From Prevotellaceae bacterium (GTDB taxonomy: Bacteria; Bacteroidota; Bacteroidia; Bacteroidales; Bacteroidaceae), in NCBI GenBank assembly GCA_003150315.1, contig QAML01000025.1, positions 1-21,387 of the forward strand: 21,387 bases of DNA, read 5' to 3'. The position numbers and the translations under genes are program-made. Shown here piece by piece: positions 19,172-21,127 of the stretch (its first letter is position 1; every line of letters begins with the position of its first letter). Under the pieces are notes generated by a model. The model saw only the letters and a program-made list of their open reading frames with translations. It was not told the DNA's origin and ran no database searches.

Positions 19172-19303
19172 ATGAACAAAGAACATATTTTAGCACAAAA
19201 AGAAGTATTAACTCCAATTGAGTATGAACACTATATTAAGCACTTATTTGATATCGGAGAACTAAGCAAAGAACTTTATGTTGAATTGAGTTCTGATTTA
19301 TGA
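19172..19303 (+). CDS. Small acidic protein, 43 aa
   Basis: Starts MNKEHILAQKEVLTPIEYEH and ends LFDIGELSKELYVELSSDL. AAGGGAG lies upstream at the end of the previous gene, four bases before this start. Its TGA overlaps the resolvase ATG. Its layout parallels the 42-residue neighbour: residues L-x-x-x-x-x-x-x-x-E-x-x-x-y-I/L, then G-L/E-I/L-x-L/K. Function unknown. Confidence 0.65.
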   Translation: MNKEHILAQKEVLTPIEYEHYIKHLFDIGELSKELYVELSSDL

Positions 19304-19782
19304 GCAAAGCTTTAGCGATTGACTTTAGTACTTCTAATACTGGTTATGCGTTTCGTAATCCTTTAACAAATGAGTATGTAGTTGGTTCAATAGCAGGTGG
19401 TAAAAGCAAAGACCCTTTGGAACGTGCAAAACAAATTGCTGACGGCATAACAGAAGTCATTGAGCATTATAACTTATTTGATTATTTTATTTATATTGAA
19501 GAACCTATCATCACGTTCAAGTCTAAGGGTAATATCTCGTTGATTAGAGCTAACGGTTCATTCTTAGGAGTTATGCGTAACCGTCATAACATTGGCTATG
19601 TTGATGTACCTAATTCTAAATGGTGCGGTTATCATCTAATCAAAGGTAAGAGTGCATTACGGAAAGTACAAAGCATTGAGATACTCAAGAGCTATAACAT
19701 AGTACCTGATAATGATATCAATGATGACCAAGCAGACGCGTTCTGTATCTTGCTCTATGTAGAAAGTCAGGAGAATATATAA
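19300..19782 (+). CDS. RuvC-like Holliday junction resolvase
   Basis: A 160-residue RNase H-fold nuclease. Acidic residues match the RuvC catalytic set: Asp8 in LAIDFSTSNTGYA, Glu67 or Glu68 in YIEEPI, and Asp143 with Asp146 in DDQADAFCI. It would resolve branched DNA made during replication and recombination before packaging, and fits with Sak3 and SSB on the other strand. RuvC-like resolvases are known in 936- and c2-type lactococcal phages. The start overlaps the upstream stop as ATGA, and its stop shares a base with the next start. Confidence 0.9.
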   Translation: MSKALAIDFSTSNTGYAFRNPLTNEYVVGSIAGGKSKDPLERAKQIADGITEVIEHYNLFDYFIYIEEPIITFKSKGNISLIRANGSFLGVMRNRHNIGYVDVPNSKWCGYHLIKGKSALRKVQSIEILKSYNIVPDNDINDDQADAFCILLYVESQENI

Positions 19783-19949
19783 TGATTGTAATTAATATTG
19801 CCTTGATTATTCTTGGCATTTTATATGGTGTAGGTTCAGTTACCAACTTTAAGGAGTGGTACTATCGCCATGACTATCTAGCTATTGCATTGAGTGTATT
19901 TACATCTATCTTATTGTTAGTGGCTGGAGTATTAAACGTTTTGAATTAG
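19782..19949 (+). CDS. Small membrane protein, 55 aa
   Basis: Starts MIVINIALIILGILYGVGSV, with a second hydrophobic segment ALSVFTSILLLVAGVLNVL after a polar loop FKEWYYRHDYL. GTCAGGAG lies upstream and the ATG overlaps the resolvase TAA (TAATG). It ends the protein-coding part of the rightward unit before the long non-coding stretch. Function unknown. Confidence 0.72.
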   Translation: MIVINIALIILGILYGVGSVTNFKEWYYRHDYLAIALSVFTSILLLVAGVLNVLN

Positions 19950-20235: not shown

Positions 20236-20293
20236 TGCAAGGTGACGGGAATGCCTTAGTTAAATGAGTGTCGCCAACTAACAGCCCTTTGCA
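20236..20293 (+). ncRNA. Possible H-type pseudoknot element
   Basis: Three interlocking helices can be drawn: GGTGAC/GTCGCC (20241-20246 with 20270-20275, one G-U), TTAGTT/AACTAA (20256-20261 with 20276-20281) and an outer TGCAA/TTGCA (20236-20240 with 20289-20293). The 3' strands of the first two are directly adjacent, which would allow coaxial stacking. Confidence 0.35.
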
Positions 20294-20297
20294 ATTA

Positions 20298-20361
20298 GAG
20301 ATATAAGTAAGCTGTTATAATAGCCTTGGATACTTCAAATGGTTCGAGTCCATTGTATCTC
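20298..20361 (+). ncRNA. tRNA-like element 1, 64 nt
   Basis: Acceptor-like stem GAGATAT (20298-20304) pairs fully with GTATCTC (20355-20361, one G-U). The T arm is AATGG-TTCGAGT-CCATT (20338-20354), a perfect 5-bp stem with a canonical TTCGAGT loop. Between them are only 33 bases, which can pair as AAGTA/TACTT around an inner GCT/AGC hairpin. No clear D arm or anticodon arm. Discriminator base A; no CCA. Confidence 0.5.
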
Positions 20362-20418
20362 ATTCTCCTTTATTTTATTATATGTTAGTGAACCTTTAAC
20401 GTAGCTGGCATATAATAA

Positions 20419-20485
20419 CACAGCATAGTATAATAGTATTACAGCTCTGCAAAGAGAAGATGAGGGTGCGACTCCCTTTGTTGTG
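20419..20485 (+). ncRNA. tRNA-like element 2, 67 nt
   Basis: Acceptor CACAGCA (20419-20425) pairs fully with TGTTGTG (20479-20485, one G-U). TA at positions 8-9 is followed by a D arm GTAT-AATAGTA-TTAC. The T arm is GAGGG-TGCGACT-CCCTT. Between D arm and T arm, after one base, only 18 bases remain; they fold as CTCT-GCAA-AGAG, a 4-bp stem with a GNRA-type tetraloop in place of a 7-base anticodon loop. Not decodable as a normal tRNA. Confidence 0.55.
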
Positions 20486-20492
20486 TTAGTGG

Positions 20493-20550
20493 TGTATAGT
20501 CCATATATGAAGTGCTAAGCTATTGCGCAGTACCTTGGCACAACTATACA
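20493..20550 (+). ncRNA. Long two-helix hairpin between tRNA-like units
   Basis: Outer stem TGTATAGT/ACTATACA (20493-20500 and 20543-20550), 8 perfect pairs. Inner stem GTGCTAAG/CTTGGCAC (20512-20519 and 20534-20541), 8 pairs with one G-U. It is preceded by TTAGTGG. It has no T-loop and is distinct from the tRNA-like units. Confidence 0.5.
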
Positions 20551-20556
20551 AGCATA

Positions 20557-20607
20557 AGAGTAATAAGGTGTACTGACGTGGTGTAGGGTTCGATTCCCTG
20601 CTGCTCT
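20557..20607 (+). ncRNA. Minimal T-arm element 3, 51 nt
   Basis: T arm TAGGG-TTCGATT-CCCTG (20584-20600) followed by CTGCTCT, which pairs at six of seven positions with AGAGTAA (20557-20563). The 20 bases between hold one copy of TAAGGTGTACTGA and no D or anticodon arm. Acceptor pairing is imperfect, so the 5' boundary is uncertain. Confidence 0.35.
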
Positions 20608-20687
20608 ATTTCAATTGAATAGCTAAGTGACTACATAAGGTCGGGAGTAGTTAATGAGTATCCTGCGGCATACTAACAGCTTAGTGG

Positions 20688-20754
20688 CATATATAAACTA
20701 ACGTAACGTTTTCTGTTATAGGAGTTCATAAGTGGTTCGAGTCCATTATATATG
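20688..20754 (+). ncRNA. tRNA-like element 4, 67 nt
   Basis: Perfect acceptor stem CATATAT (20688-20694) with ATATATG (20748-20754). T arm AGTGG-TTCGAGT-CCATT (20731-20747). The inner part has AACG-TAA-CGTT and a short TTCT-GTTAT-AGGA hairpin instead of standard D and anticodon arms. It has the same total length as elements 2 and 5 and is preceded by TTAGTGG. Confidence 0.5.
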
Positions 20755-20826
20755 TTTACCAATATAGTGTCTGATGAGATACCAGCTACTAATAGTTAGG
20801 AATAACAAGATGAGGTAGTCATAGTT

Positions 20827-20893
20827 AGCAGTATAGTCTAATGGTAAGACAGCATGATAAGTGTGATACGTGGGTTCGATTCCCAATACTGCT
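20827..20893 (+). ncRNA. tRNA-like element 5, 67 nt
   Basis: The most tRNA-like of the set. Perfect acceptor AGCAGTA/TACTGCT (20827-20833 and 20887-20893), TA at 8-9, D arm GTCT-AATGGTA-AGAC with canonical GG, and T arm with TTCGATT loop (4 of 5 pairs). Only 18 bases separate the D arm plus one base from the T stem; they can form just a 3-bp stem with loop TGATAAG, and no standard anticodon stem with U33 is possible. Discriminator A, no CCA. It sits 19 bases before the first micro-gene of the right end. Confidence 0.6.
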
Positions 20894-20912
20894 ATATATA
20901 AAGGAGAAGCAA

Positions 20913-20999
20913 ATGATATTTATAGAATGGTGTATTGGTTGGCTAATAGGTACGTTGATTGGCTTAGGCATTGTTGCTTTGATTGAGAGGAACAAATGA
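20913..20999 (+). CDS. Hydrophobic micro-protein, 28 aa
   Basis: AAAGGAGAAGCAAATG gives a strong start. The product MIFIEWCIGWLIGTLIGLGI... is one membrane span with GxxxG-like spacing (G9, G13, G17, G19) and a basic end (ERNK). Its stop overlaps the next start as ATGA. The strong ribosome binding site and coupling argue that this very short frame is real. Confidence 0.6.
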   Translation: MIFIEWCIGWLIGTLIGLGIVALIERNK

Positions 21000-21127
21000 T
21001 TATATTATTATTATTTATTATTGCATTGTTCATTAGTCCGAGCATAGCATTGTTATTGTTGCTGTTAGTTATTAATCCAGTGTTCGCATTGCTATGGCTA
21101 TTAGTGTGGCTTGCTATTAAACTATGA
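20996..21127 (+). CDS. Hydrophobic micro-protein, 43 aa
   Basis: Starts MIILLLFIIALFISPSIALL; nearly every residue is hydrophobic over two segments split by SPS and NP (LLLLLLVINPVFALLWLLVW). GAGAGG lies upstream and the start overlaps the previous stop. Its TGA overlaps the next ATG. Function unknown. Confidence 0.6.
   Translation: MIILLLFIIALFISPSIALLLLLLVINPVFALLWLLVWLAIKL

Follow-up and report, generated by a model that had tools for sequence, protein, structure and literature searches.

An array of tRNA-like units without a normal anticodon arm in a lactococcal phage genome: possible RNA-processing marks

What use could a phage have for a row of tRNA-like units of which none forms a normal anticodon arm? 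The question is raised by a 21,387-nt stretch of DNA (contig QAML01000025.1 of assembly GCA_003150315.1, labelled as a Prevotellaceae bacterium; hereafter the window), which covers the right-hand portion of the genome of a 936-type lactococcal phage (Skunavirus). Its nearest named record is Lactococcus phage 30804, identical to it over 20250-20950, and this segment holds five such units. They lie in noncoding DNA that has the middle genes on one side and, on the other, the right end, at which the matched phage record also stops. The usual explanations of phage tRNA genes are codon supply and defence against anticodon nucleases. The units described here keep the half seen by tRNA-trimming enzymes and have lost a usable anticodon, which makes it probable that they mark sites of RNA cutting and do not serve protein synthesis. 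The best explanation of the whole, to which we give slightly less than an even chance, makes the stretch a noncoding RNA array, downstream of and codirectional with the middle genes and composed of tRNA-like units in alternation with other conserved RNA segments; released from decoding, the units would serve as places where RNase P and RNase Z cut, and so as punctuation of a noncoding transcript.

Five units lacking a canonical anticodon arm

A preliminary description of this DNA had reported five canonical T loops within 600 bases, and all five are found where it placed them, between 20298 and 20893 (TTCGAGT, TGCGACT, TTCGATT, TTCGAGT and TTCGATT, none more than one mismatch from TTCRANT; units are numbered along the stretch as in Table 1). 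T stems are complete (5/5) in four units, while the last (20827-20893) has 4/5 with a G-A first pair. The four 7-bp acceptors proposed at the right distance likewise hold, at 20298-20361, 20419-20485, 20688-20754 and 20827-20893 (64, 67, 67 and 67 nt), each with 7/7 pairs when G-U is counted. The remaining unit (20557-20607) has six acceptor pairs, its seventh position being A-C, and with six T-stem pairs its stack again reaches 12 bp. A normal anticodon arm, which had been judged impossible for two of the units, is missing throughout: none of the five folds the 5-bp, 7-nt arm of a canonical tRNA, ARAGORN calls no tRNA in the window, and the units are thus not canonical tRNAs. In all five, the discriminator is followed by U with no encoded CCA, a 3' context of the RNase Z substrate type.

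The lower half is reduced in different ways. In unit 1 it pairs as a single arm replacing both D and anticodon arms; in the fold of unit 2 the anticodon arm gives way to a 4-bp hairpin with a GCAA loop; unit 5 retains its D arm and has a short 4-bp arm with a 5-nt loop at the anticodon position, and in its 46-48-nt relatives no anticodon arm is left. Three units do measure 67 nt, as reported, but the common length is partly coincidence, since their acceptors are unrelated and most relatives of the last one have 46-48 nt; a 67-nt ruler was rejected, length following unit family. The family of unit 1 occurs at 64 nt in 9 loci and at 61 nt in one, that of unit 2 at 67 nt in 18 loci, and that of unit 3 covaries among relatives; unit 4 was seen nowhere but in the window and the window's twin (L001).

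Over 20250-20950, a single descriptor finds five T arms, four of them with an acceptor, against means of 0.53 and 0.23 and a maximum of 4 for each in 500 dinucleotide shuffles; T-loop-like matches TTCGYRT, TTCACGT, TTCAAAT and TTCGTGT were excluded before counting. Chance origin was rejected for the whole array on the basis of these shuffles, the partner counts in relatives and the antisense and background scans given below, but not for unit 4 alone. The covariance-model check suggested earlier divides the units: the Rfam tRNA model (RF00005) exceeds its gathering threshold for units 2 and 5, with bases missing in the anticodon arm in both alignments, and not for the other three. Fold z scores of the five in order (-2.95, -1.55, -1.01, -0.89 and -1.77) are only moderately unusual.

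The array in other skunaviruses and in 949-type phages

The comparison covered 63 IMG/VR loci located via the resolvase and 10 phage records. Omitting the twin, truncated loci L011, L039, L043, L052 and L061, two 949-type loci and two duplicates gives 64 distinct skunavirus arrays; the duplicates (L006/L036 and L009/L046) have common tails, and the 66 arrays of some counts below amount to these 64. A sequence search with the array matches 378 phage records, and a search of plasmids gave no match.

In relatives, true tRNAs, mostly Trp and Pro, share the array with non-canonical units whose lengths span about 36-72 nt, so that the conserved length of 64-67 nt once envisaged is not the rule. ARAGORN finds no canonical tRNA in 16 of the 64 arrays, one in 26, two in 20 and three in 2. 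At least one non-canonical unit is present in 60 arrays (none in L006, L057, L066 and L073), and all 16 arrays without a canonical tRNA carry two to six. Slot 1 holds a tRNA-Trp (70 nt), a 64-, 61- or 48-nt unit, or a 71-, 68- or 58-nt type; slot 2 a tRNA-Pro (71 nt), the window's 67-nt unit or other types; later slots hold units of 36-58 nt (slot 3), 54 nt, and 46-48 or 67 nt. The locus is not a pure mimic array, because intact tRNAs fill the same slots in most relatives. Skunavirus tRNA-Pro and tRNA-Trp at the same locus are described in the accessible part of PMC8050962, where the reduced units go unmentioned; those are decoding tRNAs. For the reduced units, no description was found in the open-licence PMC literature, outside which most subscription papers fall, and the sk1 and 949 genome papers were not looked up.

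The non-canonical units retain acceptor and T arms and encode no CCA. A 7/7 upstream partner exists for 144 of 219 T arms, whereas shuffling the upstream sequence gives an expectation of 39.4; some acceptor partners in our tables are therefore chance, and the tables of units in skunavirus and 949-type loci also still contain alternative registers of single units. With that reservation about chance partners, 144 non-canonical T arms with an acceptor partner stand against 76 in canonical tRNAs (66 loci), and tRNA counts for these phages would therefore miss much of the locus. The two elbow guanines are invariant in 17 slot-5 rows, present in most slot-3 rows and absent from the D loop of unit 2. 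A separate observation concerns the two families with a TGC-type T loop (TGCGACT, TGCAAGT; window 20419-20486 and L010 1676-1747), whose D loop reads ATAGTA, not ATGGTA: perhaps a linked change at the elbow, and possibly one event.

Phages of the 949 type, of which eight loci were read (AM3, AM4, 949, L47, PMBT69, P1048, LW81 and WRP3), carry an array homologous to the skunavirus one. It combines real tRNAs, a tmRNA in 7 of 8 loci and skipping-rope RNA (Rfam RF02924) in 6 of 8 with non-decoding units, namely the slot-3 family at 54, 56 and 57 nt, a 57-mer, a 53-mer and 66/67-mers. Hairpins B and C are common to both phage groups, hairpin B being found in the 949-type loci L004 and L005, and hairpin C occurring in 47 loci as 28 variants, in some with a much shorter interior (its spacer in the window has a fold z of only -0.97). 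In all six loci that have it, skipping-rope RNA begins 2 nt behind a tRNA or tRNA-like unit, and in four of them it ends 4 nt before an intact non-decoding unit.

Maintenance, erosion and rival explanations

According to the favoured interpretation, in which the units are processing marks, they would derive from tRNA genes freed from decoding, and selection would preserve the 12-bp acceptor/T stack, the T loop, in many cases the elbow GG, and the U that follows the discriminator, since RNase P, RNase Z and the CCA-adding enzyme read these features. No such constraint would keep the anticodon and D sides from shrinking or being rearranged. Cuts at the units by the host's RNase P and RNase Z would part the array from the middle mRNA and set defined ends of the RNAs between them. 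Architecture, conservation, covariation in several families, sense-strand wobble and the 3' context are observed; transcription, cleavage and any importance of the released RNAs are inferred. Of the roles proposed earlier, a substrate role for RNase P and RNase Z has the best support.

The principal rival, which we consider unlikely, holds that the units are functionless remnants of different age, that is, phage tRNA genes eroded by deletion and T-arm recombination. Clear cut-down genes exist, a tRNA-Trp of 47 nt with its anticodon side removed in L038 and L059 and a tRNA-Pro of 54 nt in L045. Several observations weigh against the favoured interpretation, and among them the fusions and the counts of pair changes also speak for decay. 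Acceptor pairing is lost in 7 of 29 distinct slot-3 sequences, in which a slot-3 5' half is fused to a slot-5 3' half; such fusions, which join different units at their T arms by recombination, occur without acceptor pairing in further loci too, and in LW81 a fused unit stands behind the skipping-rope RNA. With relaxed membership, pairing survives 23 of 43 pair-type changes in reduced families, against 14.5 expected at a transition weight of 2 (P 0.004) and 21.8 at a weight of 6 (P 0.40); when every reduced member is counted, pair preservation thus loses significance under strong transition bias. This count is fairer and weaker than another one (22/28 kept in reduced families, 13/13 in intact tRNAs), which is biased because members were chosen by acceptor strand. 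In intact tRNAs 13 of 13 such changes keep pairing. Two of five covariation measures for slot 3 are reached by 82 and 108 of 500 shuffles, flanks are not more variable than the unit in the 64-nt family and barely so in the 47-nt family, and of five non-unit stretches folded in the window hairpin B alone clearly beats shuffles. Because fused units without acceptor pairing are tolerated, decay keeps some probability.

Decay is harder to reconcile with several signs of selection on the RNA. In the slot-3 alignment of 16 sequences (15 of the 29 distinct ones plus AM4; seven fused, from L014, L020, L041, L051, L058, L060 and L063, and seven intact sequences are omitted), all 176 cells pair and 10 are altered on both sides; slid controls pair at 38-60%, and in paired cells, in two-sided cells and in covariation score the alignment is matched by none of 500 shuffles. 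In the slot-3 mini-hairpin the loop stays at 7 nt and the stem covaries (first pair broken in one variant), while the letters at anticodon positions vary. The 949 group shows CG, TG or TA at acceptor pair 3 of its 57-mer and two-sided changes in acceptor and T stem of its 66/67-mer. Reduced families are moreover common to two phage groups, and the base next after the discriminator is U in 129 of 137 non-canonical copies and 87 of 95 distinct sequences (background T 0.33; 211 of 223 copies with canonical tRNAs and two duplicated phages counted in). Stem cells of non-decoding families comprise 724 Watson-Crick, 93 G-U, 2 A-C and 20 others when the seventh slot-3 position, a constant A-C in most members, is omitted (24 A-C and 23 others when included), and the antisense strand of the 66 arrays contains no unit of a strict descriptor that finds 40 on the sense strand and one in 2.1 million strand-bases of 119 other viral loci. 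Among fixed-length members, diversity is clearly lower in the unit than in its flanks for four of six reduced families (67, 51, 58 and 54 nt), as in Trp and Pro tRNAs. The stack of about 12 bp with its T loop is present in the units, but not in fused ones. Acceptor-stem covariation, looked for in relatives, is seen in some families, and the signal of kept pairing weakens once fused members are admitted. The interpretation in the preliminary description is partly supported: tRNA-like RNA elements with a preserved top half and a lost or shrunken anticodon side recur across many relatives, some families covary, and wobble pairs and 3' context suit a sense-strand RNA and RNase Z. The array is partly maintained and partly eroding, and part of it may be decaying.

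Two accounts place the function in trans. Matured, CCA-tailed small RNAs could act as decoys or sponges that occupy host enzymes of the tRNA acceptor end, whether for maturation or in defence by tRNA-acting proteins, of which AbiE-type nucleotidyltransferases may be an example. Consistent with this, several units per genome, all with an acceptor end and without an anticodon, replace true tRNAs in the same slots; no target or defence link turned up, the analysis gave no positive evidence of a decoy, and the tight placement against skipping-rope RNA and hairpin B suits punctuation better. We regard this as quite improbable, and give slightly less still to the joint claim that top-half tRNA mimics were selected to be anticodon-free and, as matured CCA-tailed RNAs, titrate or mislead acceptor-end enzymes of maturation or tRNA-acting abortive infection, other strains keeping true tRNAs in the slots. 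A role at the DNA level, in which the T-arm repeats near the genome end would be targets of recombination or of an endonuclease and resemble tRNA only incidentally, appears very improbable: fusions do link different units at T arms and HNH genes lie beside or inside the array in some relatives, but stem wobbles and the lack of a strict antisense unit suit sense-strand RNA, and acceptors differ among families yet pair within each.

Parallels, coordinates and further observations

The closest parallel is offered by human mascRNA and menRNA (from the MALAT1 and MEN-beta transcripts), which, in the accessible part of PMC11693755, are cut by RNase P and RNase Z, are not aminoacylated, and resemble the present units in having an acceptor stem, a T arm and a reduced remainder; their two D-loop elbow guanines have a counterpart in part of the phage units. 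The phage units may work as processing signals of that type, common descent not being claimed; mascRNA and menRNA are single units, in contrast to a phage array of several families with true tRNAs, and such signals appear here in an unexpected place and number. If this is true, non-decoding tRNA halves in two lactococcal phage groups would represent another use for phage tRNA genes, one in which tRNA-processing signals punctuate the noncoding transcript of a virus; dairy phages have the advantage of being easily grown and sequenced. Plant mitochondrial t-elements and gammaherpesvirus tRNA-like/miRNA transcripts also use tRNA-like parts as processing signals for neighbouring RNA, in different hosts. 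The T4 cluster is likewise a phage tRNA locus, and it yields additional structured stable RNAs of unknown role; it is not known to hold a set of anticodon-less tRNA-like units.

Table 1. Positions of the tRNA-like units, spacer hairpins, upstream genes and skipping-rope RNAs
Feature	Sequence	Positions	Strand	Description
tRNA-like unit 1	window	20298-20362	+	64 nt + discriminator A; 7-bp acceptor, T arm
Hairpin B	window	20375-20418	+	15-bp stem, last base directly precedes unit 2; fold z -3.77
tRNA-like unit 2	window	20419-20486	+	67 nt + discriminator T; Rfam tRNA 38.5 bits
Hairpin C	window	20493-20550	+	between units 2 and 3; closed by TGTATAGT/ACTATACA
tRNA-like unit 3	window	20557-20608	+	51 nt + discriminator A; 6-bp acceptor, 6-bp T stem, anticodon arm absent
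tRNA-like unit 4	window	20688-20755	+	67 nt + discriminator T; fold z -0.89, weakest of five
tRNA-like unit 5	window	20827-20894	+	67 nt + discriminator A; Rfam tRNA 43.9 bits
Resolvase	window	19300-19782		middle gene, upstream of array
Small membrane protein	window	19782-19949		middle gene, upstream of array
Skipping-rope RNA	L005	2207-2285		RF02924
Skipping-rope RNA	L142	2015-2093		RF02924
Skipping-rope RNA	L143	1830-1908		RF02924
Skipping-rope RNA	L144	4682-4760		RF02924
Skipping-rope RNA	L146	1933-2011		RF02924
Skipping-rope RNA	L147	2367-2445		RF02924

A promoter and terminator scan gave nothing above shuffles. The streptococcal sRNA model SpF41 (RF02435) matches 20415-20510 at 30.2 bits, below its gathering threshold of 52, and a T-loop-like match near 21049 was dropped, as it falls in a small membrane-protein open reading frame. 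A skipping-rope pattern applied to viral contigs proved too loose, only phage 949 among the matches listed passing a stricter check; the remaining loci were reused as background for the strict descriptor. Their sole strict match, at L187 5150-5207, is a unit of 57 nt (GGGCAGA/TCTGCCC; TTCAAAT as T loop) that may be a reduced tRNA of an unrelated contig.

Annotation of individual tRNA and tmRNA genes also deserves comment. In P087, for which tRNAs have been reported, ARAGORN finds no gene in the 50,000 of 60,074 bases covered. The tRNA-Pro(CCA) named in the record of phage RH10 (L003 1548-1620) appears to be misnamed, since ARAGORN reads a tRNA-Trp with anticodon CCA. The tmRNA genes inside the 949-type tRNA arrays (tag ending ANTQLAVA; L005 1541-1886 in AM3, and L004, L143, L144, L145, L146 and L147) are absent from the annotated features of these stretches in AM3, AM4, L47, PMBT69, P1048, LW81 and WRP3. 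In phage 949 (L142 3763-3833), a relative of the skunavirus tRNA-Trp carries the anticodon CTA; it is annotated as a suppressor tRNA and read by ARAGORN as Pyl.
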